A stretch of 12,152 nt of DNA. Source: a bacterium (GTDB taxonomy: Bacteria; B130-G9). The position numbers and the translations under genes were made by a program. The notes under the pieces were generated by a model that saw nothing but the letters and a program-made list of their open reading frames with translations, had not been told where the DNA came from and did not search any database. Positions 1,498 to 11,980 of this stretch are shown in pieces; within the stretch, counting starts at the first letter, position 1, and each line of letters opens with the position of its first letter. The stretch spans positions 1 through 12,152 of the forward strand of contig JAGHCW010000211.1 of the NCBI GenBank assembly GCA_021160245.1. Direction: 5' to 3'.

Positions 1498-3330
1498 ATG
1501 CTGTCAGTGGCTCTTCTGAATAGGAAACGCGTTTGGGATTGGGCAATTGTGGTTGCCGCGGGCGGTGTGGGCGGCTCTTATATTGCCGGATTCTTCCCCG
1601 GGCTGCTCGCCACTTCACATTCCATGCTCAGAACTGGCTTATTTGCGCTGTCTGTCGCCCTTTTAGCTTCACTCTATTTCATTACTTCTTCACGGACAGT
1701 GAGGCGCATTACGTCTGAGGGCCTGACACGGGATTGCGCTCTCTCCTTTCTACCAGTCTTCACATTGCTGGCCATTCCGCTATTTATCCCGCGTTTTAGC
1801 ATCTCTATGCAGACTTACTTCTCTCCGTACGTGGAGCGTCTTGGGCCAAAGCTGCTCCTTTTCGGCGCCATTCTCGCCGGCCATCTCTTCATCCGCGCCT
1901 CCTCAAAGCCGCAAGTTCGGGAGCGATTGGACGCTTATCTTTCGAGGCACTGGGGCAAGATACTGGGCGGAATTGTCTTCTCGTATGCCGCCTTTTTCCT
2001 TGTCACGGGTCTCTGGGACTTCCACATATTCGGCAATTGGCACGACCTGTCGCGCTTCACAACGTCCCAATATAGCCTCACTAAGGGTGAGTTTTTCCTA
2101 TCAAGATTGCATACTCAATCGGGGAGCAAAACGCTTGAGTTCGTCGGAGACCATTTTGCTCCGATTAAGCTCTTCATCGTGCCGTTTTTTCTTATTTTCA
2201 AAAGCGCTGCGGTCTTTCTAGTCCTGAAAACGCTCGCGATGGCATTTTCCGCGGTCGGATTTTATTATCTGGCGAGGCTGCGGCTGCGCGAGCTTGAAAG
2301 CTTCCTACTAACTGTCGCGTACCTCTTAATTCCTACCGCTATCTCGCAGAACTACACTGGCTTTCACCCCGTCTGCTTCGCCACGCTCCTGATTCCACTC
2401 GCAGTCTATTTCTTTATTAGGAGGCGCTTTGGGTGGTTCATCACCTTCATGGTGCTCTGCAGCGGAATGAAGGAAAACGTTCCGTTCATCATGCTGCTCT
2501 TCGCCGGCCTTGCCCTCATTCAAGGGAGGCCTAGAAAATGGGTGATATGGCCGATTGTCATCAACGTGTTGTGGTTAGTCCTTGTTTTCGTGATTCTCTT
2601 CCCTAGCTTCCGCGCAGCCGATAACATGATGATCGTCCGCTACCCATATATCAGCTCCATATCTGACCTGCTCTTGGGCGTTGTAAAGAACCCATTGACG
2701 CTGCTTGGCCATCTAGGTCTGGCTCAGAAGCAGGAATACATCTTCTATCTTCTGGCCCCATTTTTCTTCGTCCTGCCATTTAGAAGCGCTTACTCGCTGA
2801 TGGGCCTCATGCCCGCCGCGGTCGTTGTCGGCCTGATGAGCTGGGAGGTTCCAATAACCTTTCATCATGGCATATTACCATCATCGTTTTTCGCTATTGC
2901 CACAATGCTTGGCATTGCCCGAAGGTCTTCCCCGAATCGGAGAACCCTATCAATCTCCATCTCCGTGCTCATCTCTCTCGTCGCCCTCATTCTCATCCCT
3001 ATATGGTGGGGCGCTTTCAAATGCCATCCTGACCCATACTTCAACTTCCAGAAGGCCGCGCTTTCGAGGGTCCCCCCGGGTGTTCCAGCGGCCGCGCCTC
3101 GTTACATGCTCCCACATCTGGCCTCGCGCAATGAGGTCTATTTCCTAGCCCGGACAGCGACTGACCCGCCCGATGGCGCTCAGTATGTGATCGTGGATTC
3201 TCAGAAGATCACCGCCTTCTGGGAGCCGGATGTGGTTGATGAGGTCAAGCGGACGGGTGGCCTCAGGGATTTCGATCTCATCTGGCAAGGTGGGCCGATG
3301 TTCGTCTTCAAAAGGAGCGGACTAAAATGA
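1498..3330 (+). CDS. DUF2079 multi-pass membrane protein (GT-C-like)
   Basis: Integral membrane protein of 610 residues with roughly a dozen hydrophobic segments spread from residue ~15 to ~505 and a soluble C-terminal tail. It matches DUF2079, a family related to GT-C glycosyltransferases that use lipid-linked sugars. Recognisable points, in order, are WDFHIFGNW (173-181, the loop with a likely catalytic acid), LEFVGDHFAPIKLFIVP (213-229), GFHPVCFA (288-295), MKENVPF (324-330), and the typical tail in which ALSRVPPGVP (521-530) is followed by YMLPHLASRNEVYFL (536-550) and AQYVIVDS (561-568). ATG 1498 is the first start after an in-frame TGA at 1465. GAGG directly abuts it, so GTG at 1507 (9 bases from that GAGG) is a credible alternative. 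It is first in a three-gene plus-strand cassette. The enzymatic activity of DUF2079 proteins is not well established, so surface glycan transfer is inferred from fold and context. Confidence 0.88.
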   Translation: MLSVALLNRKRVWDWAIVVAAGGVGGSYIAGFFPGLLATSHSMLRTGLFALSVALLASLYFITSSRTVRRITSEGLTRDCALSFLPVFTLLAIPLFIPRFSISMQTYFSPYVERLGPKLLLFGAILAGHLFIRASSKPQVRERLDAYLSRHWGKILGGIVFSYAAFFLVTGLWDFHIFGNWHDLSRFTTSQYSLTKGEFFLSRLHTQSGSKTLEFVGDHFAPIKLFIVPFFLIFKSAAVFLVLKTLAMAFSAVGFYYLARLRLRELESFLLTVAYLLIPTAISQNYTGFHPVCFATLLIPLAVYFFIRRRFGWFITFMVLCSGMKENVPFIMLLFAGLALIQGRPRKWVIWPIVINVLWLVLVFVILFPSFRAADNMMIVRYPYISSISDLLLGVVKNPLTLLGHLGLAQKQEYIFYLLAPFFFVLPFRSAYSLMGLMPAAVVVGLMSWEVPITFHHGILPSSFFAIATMLGIARRSSPNRRTLSISISVLISLVALILIPIWWGAFKCHPDPYFNFQKAALSRVPPGVPAAAPRYMLPHLASRNEVYFLARTATDPPDGAQYVIVDSQKITAFWEPDVVDEVKRTGGLRDFDLIWQGGPMFVFKRSGLK

Positions 3331-3418
3331 TTCTATCACGAGTTTCCTCGATAACCCGTGCCGGTCGAGTTACATGCCCGCTCCTTCATTCGTCGAATTC
3401 CCCGTGTGGGGGCATACT

Positions 3419-4765
3419 ATGAGTTGTGAACCCATTCGGGTGAAGACATGGGTGGCCATTCTCATCATCGTCGTGGCCGCATTGCTACCGCGAGTGCTCT
3501 TTATCGCTCGCTTTGGCTTCCCGACCGCCCAGCTGGATGCGCATGAATACAAGGTCATGGCGGAGAACATATTGGCCGGACGAGACCTGAACCACACGCC
3601 GGATGGTCTGCCCGACTACCCCATACGGGTCCCTCTCTATGGTATTCTGGCCGCTGGAATTATGCGCTTATGTGGCAATTCTGAGGGGCCGGTCGTGGCG
3701 GCACATATCGTCATCTCTTCACTGCTTTGCATATTTGTATTTTTGTTGGGGGTGAAGTTCCTTGACCCGCTCGGAGCCCTGATCGGGGCAGTTCTCTTGG
3801 CGTTTCACCTCCCCTCAATTGTCCACTGTGGGGTTCTGTACGCCGACACGTTCTTTGCGCTGTGCCTCGCATTCTGTTTCTTCTCTGCCCTGAGGCTTTC
3901 GGAGGATAAGACCGCGAGATGGGCCGCTCTAACAGGGGTCTCTATCGGCTTGACGACGCTCTGCAAGGCGGCCGGACAGGGGCTAGTCATTGTGGCCATC
4001 CTGCTTCTCGTTCTTGTGAACAGACCCCCATGGAGGCGACTTGCCGCTCTCTCTGGCATTATGATTGGCGCCTTCATTATCGTCATGTCCCCATGGGTGA
4101 TCAGGAACTATAACCGTTTTGGGGCATTTGTGCCGACCGGAACGCTTGCGGGATTCAATTTTCTGACTGGCAACTACGAGATGCTGGTCCCGCCAAAGGG
4201 CCTTCTTCGTCCGGCCTTGCCCATTGACATGCTCCAGAAGTCGCTGAAGATGAGCTGGGCAGAACGCGACGCCTACTTCAGAGATGAGGGCTTTCGGATG
4301 TTCTGGCGGAACTTGAGCGACCTGCCGAGGCGCGCTTTCCTGAAGACGGGGATCATCTTCATTGATTACCCCCGTCTGTCGCTTCTTACAAACATCGCAT
4401 ACGATAGTATGATAGGCCCCCGGGGCGTGCGTGTCATCACCTGGACGGGGGTCGCACAGAACTCACTCTATGTCCTTTTGGCTGTCATGGCGCTTCTCTT
4501 ATGCAGAAAAGCGCCGAGGCGCCTCGTTGTTCTTACTCTTATTCTGATGCTCTATTTCTGGACGGGTTACGTGTTGACCCGCTCGTTATCTAGATACAGC
4601 ATTCCGCTATATCCCTATATCTGCCTCTTCGCCGGCTGCACGCTTTCTGCGCTCATTGGCCGCATCTGGGAGCGAATGCGAGCAGTGTCCTCCGCAAGTA
4701 GTGGCAACCTGGGAAGGGACAGCCAACCCAGTCGGGGAAGTTCGATTGAGAAGAGTCAGCTGTGA
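3419..4765 (+). CDS. ArnT/GT39-like membrane glycosyltransferase
   Basis: Multi-pass membrane glycosyltransferase of the dolichyl-phosphate-mannose mannosyltransferase / ArnT superfamily (GT-C fold), 448 residues from this start. The first membrane helix (~11-31) is followed by the diagnostic first periplasmic loop, LDAHEYKVMAENILAG (39-54), where D40 and E43 are the likely catalytic and metal-site acids. Later family marks are SPWVIRNYNRFGAFVPTG (224-241), FNFLTGNYE and, near the end, SRYSIPLYPYICLFAG (391-406). Such enzymes move a sugar from a polyprenyl-phosphate carrier to a lipid, glycan or protein on the outer side of the membrane. I prefer the ATG at 3419, which has GGGGG 6 bases upstream and leaves ten residues before the first helix. 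An in-frame ATG at 3374 would add 15 residues but has only a poor ribosome site. Its stop overlaps the start of the GT2 gene. The acceptor is unknown. Confidence 0.88.
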   Translation: MSCEPIRVKTWVAILIIVVAALLPRVLFIARFGFPTAQLDAHEYKVMAENILAGRDLNHTPDGLPDYPIRVPLYGILAAGIMRLCGNSEGPVVAAHIVISSLLCIFVFLLGVKFLDPLGALIGAVLLAFHLPSIVHCGVLYADTFFALCLAFCFFSALRLSEDKTARWAALTGVSIGLTTLCKAAGQGLVIVAILLLVLVNRPPWRRLAALSGIMIGAFIIVMSPWVIRNYNRFGAFVPTGTLAGFNFLTGNYEMLVPPKGLLRPALPIDMLQKSLKMSWAERDAYFRDEGFRMFWRNLSDLPRRAFLKTGIIFIDYPRLSLLTNIAYDSMIGPRGVRVITWTGVAQNSLYVLLAVMALLLCRKAPRRLVVLTLILMLYFWTGYVLTRSLSRYSIPLYPYICLFAGCTLSALIGRIWERMRAVSSASSGNLGRDSQPSRGSSIEKSQL

Positions 4766-5637
4766 GCGGCCAGCCCTTGAGAGTCGTCGCTGCAATCCCA
4801 TGCTACAACGGCGCGGAGACTGTTGCGGATACTATCCGCTCTCTCCTTAATCAGACGCGAGCCCCGGACGAAGTGCTCGTTTTGGATGACGGCTCAACGG
4901 ATGACAGTGAAAAAGTGGCTCGCGAAGCCGGCGCCCGAGTCATCTCCGTTGCTGAGAATATCGGCCTATCCGCCGGGCGAAATCATCTCTGGCAGAGCAC
5001 TGACGCCGAAATAGTTGTCTATCTCGATGCTGATACAGTCGCTCATGACGACCTGATCGAGCGCCTCCTCGACCATTATAGCGAGGCCGATGTGGGCGGT
5101 GTGGGTGGTCAAGCGGTCGAGTCGCGGATTGAGAGCATCTACGACAAATGGCGGAAGTTCACGGCCGCACAAACTCTTGGCGACGAGTTGATTGATGATT
5201 CTGAGCTGCTGTTTGGGCTCTGTTGTTCATATCGCAGGTCTGCTCTAGAAGGAGTGTCTGGTTTCGACCAGTTTTTCCGGTCCAACGGCGAGGACGTCGA
5301 TATATGTATCAGGATGCGGCAAGCGGGCTACCGGTTGGTCTATGAGCCGGCGGCGGTGGTCGAACATAAGAGGACTGATACGTTTCGCTCGCTGATGAGG
5401 ATGCTATATCGCTATGAGTTCTTCGCCCACCTATCGAAGATGCGCAATGGCGCGCGGATTGAAAACCACTATGCGGCCTTTTCGCTTCGGCTCCGGTTCC
5501 TCTTTGACCGATTTGGACAGATTATGAGGACCGGGCGTGGGCTCAAGTTCGCTCTCATTGACATGGCGGCTCTGGCTCCCGTATTCGCGGCCTGCTGGAG
5601 GGGGAAGAGGTCTAGACCGCCAAGCACTGGCCGCTGA
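4762..5637 (+). CDS. GT2-family glycosyltransferase
   Basis: GT-A-fold glycosyltransferase of 291 residues. It shows the N-terminal VVAAIPCYNGAETV (8-22), the nucleotide-binding LDDGSTDDS (41-49), the metal-binding DxD in YLDADT (88-92), and the catalytic-region GED in FRSNGEDVDICIRMRQAGY (172-190) followed by VYEPAAVVEHKR (193-204). It would transfer an NDP-activated sugar on the cytoplasmic face. It lacks the paired C-terminal helices of dolichyl-phosphate-sugar synthases, so it is more like WcaA or rhamnosyl-transferase types. A weakly hydrophobic stretch near 262-280 could attach it to the membrane. The start is GTG, and its first bases overlap the upstream stop as GTGA (4762-4765), which argues for translational coupling to the ArnT-like gene. 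It ends 4 bases before the converging djlA gene. Donor sugar and acceptor cannot be told from the sequence. Confidence 0.93.
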   Translation: MSGQPLRVVAAIPCYNGAETVADTIRSLLNQTRAPDEVLVLDDGSTDDSEKVAREAGARVISVAENIGLSAGRNHLWQSTDAEIVVYLDADTVAHDDLIERLLDHYSEADVGGVGGQAVESRIESIYDKWRKFTAAQTLGDELIDDSELLFGLCCSYRRSALEGVSGFDQFFRSNGEDVDICIRMRQAGYRLVYEPAAVVEHKRTDTFRSLMRMLYRYEFFAHLSKMRNGARIENHYAAFSLRLRFLFDRFGQIMRTGRGLKFALIDMAALAPVFAACWRGKRSRPPSTGR

Positions 5638-5641
5638 CAGC

Positions 5642-6487
5642 TTAGAATCCCCTCTTCTTGCGCAAGGTCTGATACGCCTCATTGATGACCTGAAATCGCT
5701 GGTTTGCCAACTCAATAAACTCCTTACCCAAGTGCGAGACCCGATCGGGATGGTATTTGCTGGCCTGCTCGCGATAGGCCTTCTTGATCTCATCATTCGA
5801 GGCGTATTCGGAAACACCGAGTATCTGACAGCCTCGCTGCTCGTCAGAGACGAATTCCGACGCAATCGATTTCTTCTCGGCGTTCGAGATGTCGAGATGC
5901 TTCGCGATTTTGTCGATTACGCGCTGCTCCTCGTGATGAAACTCCCGGTCGGACATCGCAACCATATAAAGCGTCCGGAGCAACAACGTTCGCTCTTGGG
6001 GCTTCGATACCCGCTTAAACTCCGCGCACACCGCGGCGAGGTCTGGTTTTTTTAACTCGACCTCTTTGGTAAGTCGTTGAATGAAGTCGAGGTCCGAGCC
6101 TGCAAAACCGTTTCGTCTGAAGAAAGCCTGAATTGCCCGATCCTCTTCGGGACGAAATACACCGTCCGCCATAGCAACCGAGACGAGCAGTGTCGCGAGA
6201 TTCGTAACAAATACAAGCTGCCGTTCTTCAGCAGTGACGTCCGAGTCGGAGAGATCGCGAACTCTGCCTGACGGCCTGCGAGGGTCGTAGTAGTGCTCTT
6301 TCTGTGAATATCCCGAAGTGCTTTCCGCAGAGCCGCCCCGACCGTAGCCATGGACCTGATCAGCTCGCTCCCTATCCGCCTTTTTATCGTATCCGTGACC
6401 TATCACCGCGCCAACAATCGCGCCCAATGGCCCGACCGCGAACAATCCGATCGCGGCGCCTATCGCCGTTCCTTTCCAAGTTGCCAT
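5642..6487 (-). CDS. djlA: DjlA-type membrane J-domain co-chaperone (TerB + DnaJ)
   Basis: 281 residues with the complete DjlA architecture. The N-terminus (MATWKGTAIGAAIGLFAVGP, then a glycine-rich helix to VIGHGYDKK) parallels the dimerising membrane anchor of E. coli DjlA, which also ends in GHMFDK. A polar linker (~35-88) rich in Gly, Ser and charged residues follows. The central TerB-like helical domain (~90-210) contains VAMADGVFRPEED (104-116) and VAMSDREFHHEEQRV (176-190), acidic motifs typical of the fold. The J domain (~218-281) has HPD at 246-248, needed to stimulate DnaK ATPase. The final residues QTLRKKRGF also resemble DjlA. Family members are inner-membrane Hsp70 co-chaperones linked to envelope stress signalling. 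A GAGG lies about 11 bases before the ATG. The gene converges on the GT2 gene with only 4 bases between stops, and no clear terminator is visible. Length is normal for the family. Confidence 0.9.
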   Translation of the reverse strand: MATWKGTAIGAAIGLFAVGPLGAIVGAVIGHGYDKKADRERADQVHGYGRGGSAESTSGYSQKEHYYDPRRPSGRVRDLSDSDVTAEERQLVFVTNLATLLVSVAMADGVFRPEEDRAIQAFFRRNGFAGSDLDFIQRLTKEVELKKPDLAAVCAEFKRVSKPQERTLLLRTLYMVAMSDREFHHEEQRVIDKIAKHLDISNAEKKSIASEFVSDEQRGCQILGVSEYASNDEIKKAYREQASKYHPDRVSHLGKEFIELANQRFQVINEAYQTLRKKRGF

Positions 6488-6724: not shown

Positions 6725-7897
6725 ATGGATTTCTCAAGGAGAGAGTTCCTCAAGGCCTCCCTGGCATGCGCGTCCTGCCTCCTACTTCCGGGGGGGGTTG
6801 CAGGAGCGAGCGGTCTATATGATGAACTTGGCTCTGCTTGGAAGGGCAATCTCGGGCTGCACGAGGCGCGTTATTACACGAAGCTCGAAGGAAATAGGGT
6901 GCGATGTGATTTGTGTCCCAGGCAATGTGTTGTCCCAGATGGTGGTCGGGGATATTGCCGGGTTCGAGAGAACCGAGGTGGTACGTACTACTCCCTAGTT
7001 CATTCGCATCCATGCTCCGCCCATGTGGACCCAATCGAGAAGAAGCCATTCTTCCATTTTTTGCCGGGCACCTCGGCGTTTTCGCTTGCGGCCGCCGGAT
7101 GCAATATGGCGTGCAAGTTCTGCCAGAACTGGCAAATATCTCAGCCGGCGCCAGAGGATATCAGGAGTTTTAAGCTCTTGCCGAGTGGATGTGCAAAGCT
7201 CGCGAAACAGGCGAATTGCGACTCAGTTGCATTGACTTACACCGAGCCGATCGTCTATTCGGAGTACGTGCAGGACATCGCAAGGGCGTCGAACGAGGCG
7301 GGCATAAAGACCGTTGTCATTTCCGCTGGGTACATCAAAGAGAAACCGCTGCTGGATATGCTATCCAAAATCTCCGCCATAAAAATCGATCTCAAATCAT
7401 TCAGCAACGACTACTACAAGCGAATATGTAACACGACGCTTGGGCCTGTGCTCGAGACGCTTAAGACGATCAAAGCATCCGGCGTCTGGTTCGAGATTGT
7501 GAATCTCATTCTACCGACCCTAAACGATTCTCTTTCAGAGCATAAGCAGATGTTTGAATGGATACTCTCAAATCTAGGCCCCGCTGTGCCGGTTCATCTC
7601 ACGAGGTTTCATCCAACCTACAAAATGAAAAGACTTCCCTCCACCCCAAAGAGCACACTCGAAAAGCTCCACAAGCTGGCAAAGGAGATGGGATTAAGAT
7701 TTCCATACATAGGTAATGTACCGGGTAATCCGGCGGAAAATACTTATTGCCCGAAATGTGGTAAGTTGCTGATTGAGAGGCGCGGATTTGAGGTCTCATC
7801 GGTTAATATCGTATCCTCAAAGTGTCGATTCTGCGGCGAGCGTATCGAGGGTGTTTGGTCATCCACAATAGAGAAAAGGAGGGCGTTAGTTGGCTGA
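6725..7897 (+). CDS. Tat-signal radical SAM enzyme, AmmeMemoRadiSam system type
   Basis: 390 residues. The N-terminus carries a twin-arginine signal: SRREFLK at 4-10, a hydrophobic stretch (ASLACASCLLLPGGVAGA), then SGLYDE. Next come a cysteine cluster (C61, C64, C68, C78) in CDLCPRQC and GYCRVRENRGG, and VDPIEKKPFFHFLPG (101-115). The radical SAM 4Fe-4S motif CNMACKFC has C126, C130 and C133. IKIDLKSF (219-226) and RFHPTYKM (294-301) follow, and a zinc-ribbon-like C-terminus has C342, C345, C367 and C370. This order matches the radical SAM component of the AmmeMemoRadiSam system (TIGR04337, PflA-related), whose reaction is not settled. I chose ATG 6725 because it places the Tat motif at the N-terminus. 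An in-frame ATG at 6572 would bury it behind 51 unrelated residues. The ribosome site is weak. The stop overlaps the phosphatase start by 8 bases. AMMECR1 and Memo partners are not in the window. Confidence 0.9.
   Translation: MDFSRREFLKASLACASCLLLPGGVAGASGLYDELGSAWKGNLGLHEARYYTKLEGNRVRCDLCPRQCVVPDGGRGYCRVRENRGGTYYSLVHSHPCSAHVDPIEKKPFFHFLPGTSAFSLAAAGCNMACKFCQNWQISQPAPEDIRSFKLLPSGCAKLAKQANCDSVALTYTEPIVYSEYVQDIARASNEAGIKTVVISAGYIKEKPLLDMLSKISAIKIDLKSFSNDYYKRICNTTLGPVLETLKTIKASGVWFEIVNLILPTLNDSLSEHKQMFEWILSNLGPAVPVHLTRFHPTYKMKRLPSTPKSTLEKLHKLAKEMGLRFPYIGNVPGNPAENTYCPKCGKLLIERRGFEVSSVNIVSSKCRFCGERIEGVWSSTIEKRRALVG
7876..7882 (+). promoter_or_regulatory. Strong Shine-Dalgarno for the TTG-started phosphatase
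   Basis: AAGGAGG lies 7 bases before TTG 7890, inside the last codons of the radical SAM gene. It is the reason for accepting a TTG start, and together with the 8-base overlap it indicates coupled translation of the two genes. Confidence 0.8.
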
Positions 7898-9620
7898 TTT
7901 CTCAAGGGCCTATTTGAGAAGGGTCAAGCAACCTCTCTTTTCGAAGCTTGGCTCCTCGCAAGCGAAGTCTCTTCTGTTTGAGGTTTTCTGCGAACTCAAT
8001 CTCTCCCCGTTCAACTTGAGCGCCTCAGATTATCACATCCTTGTGACGGTTCTCGAGGAGCGGCTTGAGCAACGGCAGTTGGTTAATGCTAAGATGCTTT
8101 CACATCTCAAAGGAGATTGGTCTGTTGACAGCGTCACGGAGATAGAGGTCTTGGGAGATGAGTCGGAGACTTCATCCGATAAAGAGGAACTTCCTTCAGA
8201 GCCTGAATCGCTCTGTGAAGCCATATCGGACGCGGCAATCAGCGGATCATTGGCGGGATTCCGGCTTCCTTCAAATCCATCCCCAATGCAACAGTCGGTC
8301 TTGCAGTTCATGCAGCTAGTGCTCAACACCATCTCAACGCTCAAGGAGCAAACCGAGGGTCCTGAGGTTATGCGTGCGAACGAGCTCGTTGCTGCTCAGC
8401 TGGAGCGATACGAGCGAATTACGGCCTTCAGCAGGCAGATAAACACCCTGGACATGGAGTACTTGAGGAAGAAGCTTGCGCTGCTGCCGTATGTGCTTGG
8501 CGTCGAGGATGTCGCAGTTCTTGTTTTCGGAGCTGATGGCCTTTGTGAACCGTTTTATGTCAGTGTTGAGGGAGCCGAAAGCGATTTGGGAATGTCAATG
8601 CTCCTAGCCTCTCTGGCTGAAGAGACAGTCAAGAGATGCGGGGTGATTTCGGGCTTTGAGCCAGAGTTCGCTAGCAGCTATCAGGATGTGATTCTTGATG
8701 CGGGCTTTTCTAGTAACTGGCTGGCGATTCCTCTTCTGATCGAGGATGTGTTTCTCGGCGCAGTCATCGTATTTGACGATTCTAATGATCTTTATACCGA
8801 GGATGAAGTCAACGTCATCGTGCGCGTGTGCAACCACATGGCAAGCGCCCTTCAGAGCTGCCTCCAGCACAAAAATGTCGGGCTGCTGAGGCAGAGGCTG
8901 GACGATGAGCTGCAAGGCGTCGGAAGCGTGCAAGAGAAACTTCTCCCGCAAACTCTGCCAAAAACACGCGGCTGCGAGATTGCGGCATTCTACAAACCTT
9001 CAGGAAGAGCGAGCGGTGACTATTATGACGTCAAAAAAATCTCCGATACTGTCATATCGTTCATGGTCGCCGACGTCTCAGGACATGGAGCACCGGCCGC
9101 GGTCGTCATGGCAATGTGTAAAACGGCATTCAGGCTCTTTCTGAAGCAGCATCTGCCAATCTCCAAAATGCTGCCTCAATTCAACGATTTCCTCTGCTCC
9201 ACATTAAATCCAGAGATGTTCGTAACTGCCGTGGCCGGTAGAATAGATATTCAGTCCGGAGTCCTTGAATATGTCTCCGCTGGACATTGCCCTGCGATAC
9301 TGATTCGCGGCGCAACGGGCAAGCATGAGCTGTTGACCAACCGCGATGTCATACTTGGCGTCCTTCCGAACCAAACGTACAATTCGACTTCGGTGCCGTT
9401 GCGCAAAGGCGATAGATTGGTTTTCTACACAGACGGGGTCACCGAGGCAGTGGACGAGGACGGTTCGGCTTTTGGCACTGACATGCTGATTGAGACGATA
9501 GAGAATGCACCGTCCCTATCGGCGGAAGAGCTAATAGGCAAGATCGTTACCACAGTTATCGATTTTATGGGAAGTGTAGATCCGGACGACGACATAACCC
9601 TGCTTGTCTTTTCCTTTTGA
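7890..9620 (+). CDS. GAF-domain PP2C (SpoIIE/RsbU-like) serine/threonine phosphatase
   Basis: 576-residue soluble regulator. Residues 1-75 form a helical, uncharacterised N-terminal domain. Residues 78-108 are an acidic Ser/Glu-rich linker. A helical or coiled stretch (~130-185) leads into a GAF-like sensor domain (~185-325; note VAVLVFGADG, NWLAIPLLIEDVFLGAVIVFDD and a following LYTEDEVNVI). The C-terminal PP2C/SpoIIE domain (~345-576) keeps its metal ligands: SGDYYDV (D377, D380), VADVSGHGAPAAVVM (D395), SAGHCPAIL, FYTDGVTEA (D515) and the terminal DDDITLLVF (D568). It should dephosphorylate phospho-Ser/Thr proteins, classically an anti-anti-sigma factor, in response to a signal sensed by the GAF domain. 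No STAS protein or anti-sigma kinase is in the window. Its TTG start has AAGGAGG 7 bases upstream and overlaps the radical SAM gene by 8 bases. The link between the two proteins is unknown. Confidence 0.92.
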   Translation: MADFSRAYLRRVKQPLFSKLGSSQAKSLLFEVFCELNLSPFNLSASDYHILVTVLEERLEQRQLVNAKMLSHLKGDWSVDSVTEIEVLGDESETSSDKEELPSEPESLCEAISDAAISGSLAGFRLPSNPSPMQQSVLQFMQLVLNTISTLKEQTEGPEVMRANELVAAQLERYERITAFSRQINTLDMEYLRKKLALLPYVLGVEDVAVLVFGADGLCEPFYVSVEGAESDLGMSMLLASLAEETVKRCGVISGFEPEFASSYQDVILDAGFSSNWLAIPLLIEDVFLGAVIVFDDSNDLYTEDEVNVIVRVCNHMASALQSCLQHKNVGLLRQRLDDELQGVGSVQEKLLPQTLPKTRGCEIAAFYKPSGRASGDYYDVKKISDTVISFMVADVSGHGAPAAVVMAMCKTAFRLFLKQHLPISKMLPQFNDFLCSTLNPEMFVTAVAGRIDIQSGVLEYVSAGHCPAILIRGATGKHELLTNRDVILGVLPNQTYNSTSVPLRKGDRLVFYTDGVTEAVDEDGSAFGTDMLIETIENAPSLSAEELIGKIVTTVIDFMGSVDPDDDITLLVFSF

Positions 9621-9691: not shown

Positions 9692-11980
9692 ATGTCCAGA
9701 AGTAACAACCGCCCAGTTTTTGAGGAACGTCAAACCGATGCGAGCACGGCAGAAGACTTGCCCCGTCTGGATAATTCCAGCTCGGAAGAGGCGCAAGCGT
9801 GCGGCGTCATCGATAAGATAATCTATAAATCGCCGGACGAGAAATTCGCCGTTGCATCCCTGAAGCTTGATTCTGGCGAGCAGATTACAATCACCGGGGG
9901 GATTGGGCTCTGCTCCGTTGGGGAGGAGCTCAAGGTCTCGGGGACCTTTTCAAGTCACAAGAAATACGGCAAGAGACTGCAAGTTCGAGAGTTCTCCTCG
10001 CGCGTTCCCCGAACGCTTCTTGGTATAAGAAAGTTCCTCGCCTCAGGTCTTATCACCGGCATTGGCGAGAAGAGGGCGGAGCAGATCGTTGAGCGTTTTG
10101 GCGAGAACTCAGTCGATGTCATCGAGAACGACCCCGAGCGACTGAATGAGATTCCCGGCCTCGGAAAGAAGGCCATAAAGCACGCTAGCGAGGCGCTTAA
10201 AAAGTATAAGGGGATAAGAGAACTACTCATCTTCCTTCAGGGATACGGCATAACCGTCACTCGAGGGACGCAGATATTCAATGAATATGGCGCCGGCGCG
10301 ACCAGCCTACTCTCCCGAAATCCCTACCGACTGGCAGATGACATTACCGGCATCGGCTTTCGAACCGCGGACGAAATCGCCCGGAAGCTCGGAATGCGGC
10401 CGGACAATCCTGATAGAATCAGGGCTGGTATATCTTACGTCCTCCGCCGGGCCACAGAGAGGGGCCATACCTATCTGCCCAAAGATGTCTTGATAGAATC
10501 TGTGGAAGATTCATTGAGCGTTGGAAATGAGTTAATCTCAGAATCGCTCGAAACACTCATTCGAGAAGAAGATCTCATACTCGATCCCCTAGACGAAGAT
10601 GCCGTATTTCTGCCTGAACTTGCATCAAGAGAGAAGAGCGTGGCCGAGGGCATCGCCCGCTTAACTTTCGGCCCCATGCCGTTCAGCTCGAAGAGTGCCA
10701 TCGAGGCCTGTTCCGAGTTGCGACGTGAAGATGGCCTTGCCCTATCTGAAGAGCAGGCCCGAGCGGTGAACTTGGCACTCACCTCGAAGGTAGTCGTGAT
10801 TACGGGCGGACCCGGCACGGGCAAGACGGCCCTAGTTGGCCGCCTCATCCGAACCTGTCAGCAACTTCGCGTAAGAGCTGCATTGTGCGCCCCGACTGGG
10901 CGTGCTGCCAAGCGACTCTCCGAGGCGACCGGTTTTGAGGCGAAGACCGTCCATAGATTGCTCAAATACGACGCCTTCACAAGAGGATTCAAATACAATC
11001 GATACAAAAAGCTCCCAGCCGACCTCGTCGTCATGGATGAGGCATCTATGGCGGATACTACGCTCATGTCCCAACTAGTCAGCGCCTTGCCCGACTCGTG
11101 CTGCCTCGTCATCGTCGGGGATGTTGACCAGCTGCCGTCCGTCGGACCGGGGGCTGTTTTGAGCGACATAATCGCATCTGGCGTTGTGCCGACTGCCCGC
11201 CTCCACCATATCTTCCGTCAGGAGAGCAGAGACGGCTCGGATAACCTCATCGTCGTGAATGCCCATAGGATCAATCGCGGCGAGGCGCCGATTTTCCCAA
11301 AGCGCTCGGACAAGCGCCTCAGTCAGTTCTACTTTGTGGACAGAATATCGCCAGATGCCGTTCTAAAGGCGGTCGTTGAGCTTGCGAGTAAACGGATACC
11401 CAGCAGATTTGGTCTCAATCCCTTAACCGAACTGCAGGTTCTGACGCCAATGCACAAGGGCAAGGCCGGGACAAATAGTCTGAACGAGGAGCTCCAGCGG
11501 GCGCTCAACCCAGCGGGCAAGCCGATCCAATTCGGAGGACGAGTCCTCAGAGTAGGCGACAAGGTCATGCAGACCAAGAACAATTATGACAAAGAGGTCT
11601 TCAACGGGGATATCGGTGTCGTCGCCGCAATGGACACTGAAAAGCAGAAACTACTGGTCGATTTTAGCGACCGGACCCTCCCCTACTCGCCGCTCGAGAT
11701 GTCCGAATTGGTTCTGGCTTATGCTATTTCAGTTCATAAATCGCAGGGCAGCGAATACACCGCCGTAATCCTGCCGCTTATGACCCAGCACTTCATGCTC
11801 TTGCAGCGGAATCTCATCTATACCGCCGTAACACGGGCAAAGCGACTCGTTGTAATAGTCGGTTCCATGAAAGCGCTCTCAATGGCGATTTCGAACGATA
11901 AGACCGCAAAGAGGCATACTCTTCTCTCCGAAAGACTGAAAAGTTGGGATTCGGGACAGGAGCTGCTATTACATGGTTGA
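9692..11980 (+). CDS. recD2: RecD2-type ATP-dependent 5'-3' DNA helicase
   Basis: 762 residues, the normal length for RecD2 (RecD-like helicases not bound to RecBC). After a polar, apparently disordered N-terminal tail (1-36) comes an OB-like N-terminal domain (~37-105, CGVIDKIIYKSPDEKFAVASL onward). Helix-hairpin-helix motifs follow (ITGIGEKRAEQIV 121-133, IPGLGKKA 154-161, ITGIGFRTADEIA 218-230). The SF1B helicase core shows Walker A GGPGTGKT (372-379), APTGRAAKRL (400-409), Walker B VVMDEASM (446-453), GDVDQLPSVGPGAVL (476-490), LTPMHKG (584-590), the SH3-insert region near RVGDKVMQTKNNYDKEVFNGD (620-640), SVHKSQGSEY (680-689) and YTAVTRAK (710-717). It would unwind DNA with 5' overhangs and act in repair of stalled forks or damage. 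The ATG has a weak ribosome site, and no start closer to residue 37 stands out. No recB or recC is nearby, as expected. Confidence 0.96.
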   Translation: MSRSNNRPVFEERQTDASTAEDLPRLDNSSSEEAQACGVIDKIIYKSPDEKFAVASLKLDSGEQITITGGIGLCSVGEELKVSGTFSSHKKYGKRLQVREFSSRVPRTLLGIRKFLASGLITGIGEKRAEQIVERFGENSVDVIENDPERLNEIPGLGKKAIKHASEALKKYKGIRELLIFLQGYGITVTRGTQIFNEYGAGATSLLSRNPYRLADDITGIGFRTADEIARKLGMRPDNPDRIRAGISYVLRRATERGHTYLPKDVLIESVEDSLSVGNELISESLETLIREEDLILDPLDEDAVFLPELASREKSVAEGIARLTFGPMPFSSKSAIEACSELRREDGLALSEEQARAVNLALTSKVVVITGGPGTGKTALVGRLIRTCQQLRVRAALCAPTGRAAKRLSEATGFEAKTVHRLLKYDAFTRGFKYNRYKKLPADLVVMDEASMADTTLMSQLVSALPDSCCLVIVGDVDQLPSVGPGAVLSDIIASGVVPTARLHHIFRQESRDGSDNLIVVNAHRINRGEAPIFPKRSDKRLSQFYFVDRISPDAVLKAVVELASKRIPSRFGLNPLTELQVLTPMHKGKAGTNSLNEELQRALNPAGKPIQFGGRVLRVGDKVMQTKNNYDKEVFNGDIGVVAAMDTEKQKLLVDFSDRTLPYSPLEMSELVLAYAISVHKSQGSEYTAVILPLMTQHFMLLQRNLIYTAVTRAKRLVVIVGSMKALSMAISNDKTAKRHTLLSERLKSWDSGQELLLHG

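Follow-up and report, generated by a model that had tools for sequence, protein, structure and literature searches.

As the cytoplasm is where S-adenosylmethionine is made, radical SAM chemistry is taken to be cytoplasmic, and S-adenosylmethionine is not expected outside this compartment. The window analyzed here, the whole 12,152-nucleotide stretch of bacterial contig JAGHCW010000211.1, encodes a radical SAM enzyme that begins with what appears to be a Tat signal, and the gene of this enzyme overlaps a phosphatase gene. This raises the questions of where such an enzyme acts and whether the phosphatase is its partner. A sequence-only reading had pointed to the difficulty of supplying S-adenosylmethionine to an exported enzyme, which we uphold as a real puzzle, and had proposed that the two proteins form an unrecognised redox- or envelope-sensing module.

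Organization of the gene pair

The two genes were confirmed as described earlier, coordinates included: a radical SAM enzyme with an SRREFLK motif, overlapped by a phosphatase gene that starts with TTG behind AAGGAGG (Table 1). The enzyme had been assigned to the AmmeMemoRadiSam family, and the match to TIGR04337 (AmmeMemoRadiSam radical SAM enzyme) was 368.2 bits against a cut-off of 220, covering positions 1-337 of the 349 in the model. By sequence it is a member of the known three-part AmmeMemoRadiSam system.

Table 1. Features of the gene pair and of the conserved run containing the Memo-AMMECR1 fusion.
Feature	Position	Strand	Details	Evidence
Radical SAM enzyme gene, AmmeMemoSam_rS family	6725..7897	+	390 aa; ATG 6725, TGA 7895-7897	TIGR04337, Pfam Radical_SAM, 11 conserved cysteines
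Tat-type signal sequence	6725..6808	+	MDFSRREFLKASLACASCLLLPGGVAGA	sequence; purifying selection across three genera
N-terminal cysteine set	6905..6958	+	C61, C64, C68, C78	invariant, 93/93 relatives
Radical SAM cluster motif CNMACKFC	7100..7123	+	C126, C130, C133; CxxxCxxC	invariant, 93/93 relatives
YTEP	7238..7249	+	aligned to SAM-binding GGE motif of pyruvate formate-lyase activating enzyme	profile alignment to 3c8f
C-terminal cysteine set	7748..7834	+	C342, C345, C367, C370	C342 93/93; others 90-92/93
Shine-Dalgarno-like AAGGAGG within the enzyme gene	7876..7882	+	7 bases upstream of phosphatase TTG	sequence
Overlap of enzyme and phosphatase genes	7890..7897	+	8 bases	sequence; identical overlap in L071 and L072
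PP2C/SpoIIE-type phosphatase gene	7890..9620	+	576 aa; TTG 7890, stop 9618-9620	PF07228 match
GAF-like domain of phosphatase	8493..8852	+		PF01590 20.4 bits, cut-off 22.4; alpha/beta elements in low-confidence model
PPM/SpoIIE catalytic domain	9051..9614	+	GDYYD, VADVSGHG, DDDITLL	motifs; metal-binding aspartates
Memo-AMMECR1 fusion, S41 protease with PDZ, 718-aa glycosyltransferase-like protein	L067 6080-11486			run kept in 4/4 family genomes

Genomes of two related genera, G001 (contig C18) and G002 (contig C341), show an identical overlap with a TTG start. The suggested translational coupling of the phosphatase to the enzyme is supported. In G001 the phosphatase gene runs off contig C18; its missing end was found at the edge of contig C59, followed after about 70 bases by RecD2, the next gene also in the window, and the order of phosphatase and RecD2 is likely to be the same across the contig break. 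The gene downstream of the phosphatase is a different one in G002, indicating that the conserved unit is the pair itself and not its surroundings.

Within the window the RecD2 helicase gene lies at 9692-11980 (TIGR01448, 820 bits). Divergent from the enzyme gene, at 5642-6487 on the minus strand, is a gene for a TerB and DnaJ domain protein resembling the co-chaperone DjlA, and positions 1498-5637 encode in a row a DUF2079 membrane protein, a PMT-type glycosyltransferase and a GT2 glycosyltransferase. Promoter-like and terminator-like sites were found around the pair in numbers near chance.

The phosphatase and its relation to the enzyme

The earlier description of the second protein as a GAF-PP2C phosphatase stands for the PP2C part (PF07228, 177.9 bits, metal motifs complete), whereas the GAF match falls below the Pfam cut-off. 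In fold the protein resembles the phosphatase domains of RssB, SiaA and SpoIIE. Its N-terminus matched no Pfam family, and with a poor model (pLDDT 54) we do not claim an RsbU-like domain there. Hydropathy analysis gave no clear transmembrane segment, as the hydrophobic stretches are parts of its GAF-like and catalytic domains. No STAS or HATPase (anti-sigma) genes adjoin the phosphatase gene, in agreement with the sequence-only reading; they occur on other contigs only, and an Rsb-type STAS and HATPase set is present on contig C76 together with a PP2C gene.

A sensing unit in which one of the two proteins controls or reports on the other would account for the retention of the overlap and its TTG start in three genera despite different flanking genes in G002, and for the fact that in G003 (83% complete) neither the Tat-bearing enzyme nor the phosphatase was detected. 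The adjacency is, however, confined to three genera of a single family, that of the window, in a phylum represented by only four genomes, and among about 90 loci of relatives from some 20 phyla none outside this family had a phosphatase adjoining the enzyme gene. The compartments would also differ: a phosphatase without a predicted transmembrane segment could not contact the enzyme after export, which makes direct sensing unlikely. We therefore regard a sensing unit as unlikely, and the proposal of an unrecognised module as weak. From the sequence, the phosphatase is best read as a cytosolic regulator of the RsbU type that is translated together with the enzyme and is specific to one small phylum; shared control of the two proteins is possible.

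The Tat leader in the window's family and among relatives

The leader of the enzyme, MDFSRREFLKASLACASCLLLPGGVAGAS, contains SRREFLK and is likely to be cleaved after AGA. Over the 14 codons from SRR the window differs from G002 by 10 synonymous and one nonsynonymous codon changes, and from G001 by eight and three, respectively. The next 25 codons are mostly replaced, with 5 synonymous and 18 nonsynonymous changes relative to G002 and 3 and 21 relative to G001. This synonymous excess in the leader compared with the codons that follow indicates that the leader is translated and constrained. In G001 the pair of arginines reads RK instead of RR. A search for TatC found it in three of the phylum's four genomes, that of the window among them (contig C162). 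Purifying selection on the leader and the presence of TatC bear out the Tat signal proposed from the sequence, and export of the enzyme is predicted from leaders of this kind.

Leaders of relatives were judged by motif and hydropathy, the automatic calls being then checked by hand. A Tat or other membrane-targeting leader was present on 69 of 93 relatives from about 20 phyla. In a search of 60 genomes spread over the domain, the relatives with at least about 50% identity mostly had Tat leaders. On a tree of 93 enzymes with hand-corrected labels (53 Tat, 16 hydrophobic, 21 none and 3 unknown) the labels cluster, the Tat label requiring seven changes against a mean of 30 after shuffling. The window enzyme falls, with 93% support, in a group whose 30 rows all carry the Tat label. 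A second enzyme of the same genome (contig C153), without a leader, groups with leaderless archaeal sequences; by sequence the genome thus encodes a leaderless AmmeMemoRadiSam enzyme as well as one with a predicted export leader. Stops inside some enzyme matches of the genome search were taken as alignment run-over past the gene end and not as recoding.

Neighbours of the enzyme in other phyla

Three neighbours recurred at six loci of Tat-bearing relatives (L073-L078). One is a Memo-AMMECR1 fusion that has a signal sequence, another is a DUF362 protein whose N-terminus is Tat-like, and the third is a membrane protein in which hydropathy gave five to seven segments before a spermine/spermidine-synthase domain. 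The scan of named genomes took the best 80 of a larger number of radical SAM loci; neighbours were scored within 4.5 kb with profiles built from the seed loci, and leader class was assigned by an automatic rule. The fusion or the membrane protein lay nearby at 30 of 50 Tat, 14 of 17 hydrophobic and 8 of 26 leaderless loci. With automatic labels the link between leader and neighbour gave p 0.005 over all loci, but was not significant (p 0.20) when only the 46 loci with complete flanks were counted.

Closer inspection of the eight exceptions called leaderless identified two KR-type Tat-like leaders and one frameshift hiding a hydrophobic leader; one more ends at the contig end, one has no clear call, two are leaderless and concordant, and one is discordant. 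At L136 and L164 (Bacteroidales) a leaderless enzyme stands beside a fusion that also has no signal sequence. The fusion at L142 has none either, and the start of its enzyme is ambiguous, while the discordant L159 combines a leaderless enzyme with a signal-bearing fusion. Every fusion beside a leader-bearing enzyme has a hydrophobic signal sequence. When leader and fusion signal were counted by hand and compared in a rough Fisher test, p was 0.0007-0.006, the leaderless cases being all from Bacteroidales or Bacteroidetes and so not many independent events.

The DUF362 gene adjoins a membrane polyferredoxin gene in two Tat loci, L074 (9453-11907) and L101 (3376-6026), and this adjacency is a lead for an electron path. 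At L186 of G002 the gene after a Tat-DUF362 gene encodes a protein with a hydrophobic N-terminus. In a KSB1 genome a stand-alone AMMECR1 gene follows the fusion (L075, 10403-10960), and a PP2C gene cluster found a few kilobases downstream of the Tat enzyme operon was judged unrelated.

Outside the window's lineage the recurring unit is the enzyme together with Memo-AMMECR1, both with predicted export leaders. This neighbourhood is conserved around Tat-bearing relatives in other phyla and takes the place of the phosphatase, which had been put forward as the defining partner. Such a neighbourhood, and an adjacency of enzyme and phosphatase confined to close relatives, are two of the outcomes that the sequence-only reading had itself named as speaking against its module.

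The leaders might instead serve quality control or membrane tethering, with the enzyme acting at the cytoplasmic face and export rare or abortive. S-adenosylmethionine is available at that face, it is not known to occur on the other side, and in some relatives hydrophobic anchors replace the Tat motifs; but an N-terminal anchor of either kind normally puts the domain outside, the partner fusion has signal or lipoprotein-type leaders, and in a few loci the two leaders covary. We consider action at the cytoplasmic face quite improbable.

Partners in the genome of the window

Memo and AMMECR1 had been reported as absent. This holds for the window, which contains neither gene, but not for the genome, where the only AMMECR1 is part of a Memo-AMMECR1 fusion, encoded on contig C130, with the signal-peptide N-terminus MKVDAGLANSLSVLIVIILIALCPFEAFS. 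Two further Memo genes are on contigs C89 and C129; in the product of the third Memo gene (L070, 7693-8952) the Memo domain is preceded by an N-terminal extension of 130 aa. All three AmmeMemoRadiSam components of the genome pass the curated cut-offs (TIGR04335, TIGR04336 and TIGR04337). Memo residues H95, H129 and C275 are invariant in six aligned fusions and align with positions of MEMO1 that we take to be its metal site.

The fusion, the spermidine-synthase-like membrane protein and TatC are all unlinked to the enzyme gene in this genome. In all four family genomes the fusion is followed by an S41 protease and then by a glycosyltransferase-like protein, and the spermidine-synthase-like membrane protein is present in all four as well. 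G003 has the fusion, and no Tat-bearing enzyme was detected in its 83% complete genome. As the genes are unlinked in this family, we infer the partnership of enzyme and fusion there from the relatives.

Probable retention of S-adenosylmethionine use

Apart from the cysteines listed in Table 1, the tyrosine of YTEP is present in all 93 relatives and the glutamate in 91, and the motif, its variable third residue aside, is conserved in 90 or more. This conservation suggests that use of S-adenosylmethionine is probably retained in the window enzyme. The closest solved structure by sequence is pyruvate formate-lyase activating enzyme. We had considered A201 (SAG for SNG) as a loss-of-function change and dropped it, since N, A, C and G are all found at this position among relatives.

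The 11 conserved cysteines, which suggest more than one metal site, might imply that the exported protein is an iron-sulfur electron carrier or sensor which has lost radical SAM catalysis. This is very improbable: nearly all relatives keep D222, YTEP and the cysteine motif of radical SAM enzymes, and a structure model of moderate confidence (pLDDT 73) has a fold that matches SAM-bound pyruvate formate-lyase activating enzyme.

A proposed model for an exported enzyme

On balance we favour the reading that the window enzyme is exported by Tat and belongs to an AmmeMemoRadiSam system that works outside the cytoplasm, with the phosphatase as a coupled cytosolic regulator of the RsbU type and not a structural partner. 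The enzyme would fold and acquire its iron-sulfur clusters, perhaps also S-adenosylmethionine, in the cytoplasm, and would then be exported in folded form by Tat. In an anoxic envelope it would act with Memo (a metal-site, dioxygenase-like domain) and AMMECR1 domains, modifying an envelope protein or a small molecule by hydrogen-atom abstraction; the analogy is with pyruvate formate-lyase activating enzyme, the nearest characterised relative, which acts on a protein glycine. Such a system would need S-adenosylmethionine and electrons to be carried across the membrane, and candidates for their delivery among the recurrent neighbours are the polyferredoxin, the Tat-DUF362 protein and the spermidine-synthase-like membrane protein. 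The phosphatase would most likely adjust a partner switch or another phosphoprotein when the operon is expressed. More tentatively, and with the chances somewhat short of even, about 20 phyla may have a complete radical SAM system at work outside the cytoplasmic membrane, supplied with SAM and low-potential electrons by dedicated neighbours.

A literature search turned up neither a Tat-exported radical SAM enzyme nor an exported AmmeMemoRadiSam, although the 2019 JBC paper on Memo-AMMECR1 may mention exported forms; the search also gave no paper on DUF362 with a twin-arginine motif, and nothing relevant on a fused MFS/spermidine synthase. Wide conservation of leader-bearing AmmeMemoRadiSam parts argues that S-adenosylmethionine reaches the envelope or that the enzyme is exported with a single charge of it. 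The biochemistry of the human counterparts of Memo and AMMECR1 is unsettled, so an operon linking both domains with a membrane compartment and with defined neighbours offers a testable route to their function. The link to the phosphatase is of local interest only.

Comparison with known systems

The phosphatase has the catalytic domain and metal motifs of RsbU/SpoIIE/RssB-type PP2C phosphatases and differs from them in that its N-terminus is helical and unmatched and that neither a STAS nor an anti-sigma gene lies next to its own. Pyruvate formate-lyase activating enzyme (3c8f, 3cb8) has the cluster and SAM motifs in common with the window enzyme; in contrast, it is cytosolic, is only 16-19% identical and is without the extra N- and C-terminal cysteine sets. 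PMC7159879 attributes the Memo-AMMECR1 systems to Burroughs 2019. All three components of the AmmeMemoRadiSam system are also encoded in the genome of the window, but here the radical SAM enzyme bears a Tat leader, one protein with a signal peptide combines Memo and AMMECR1, and the genes are scattered in the family.
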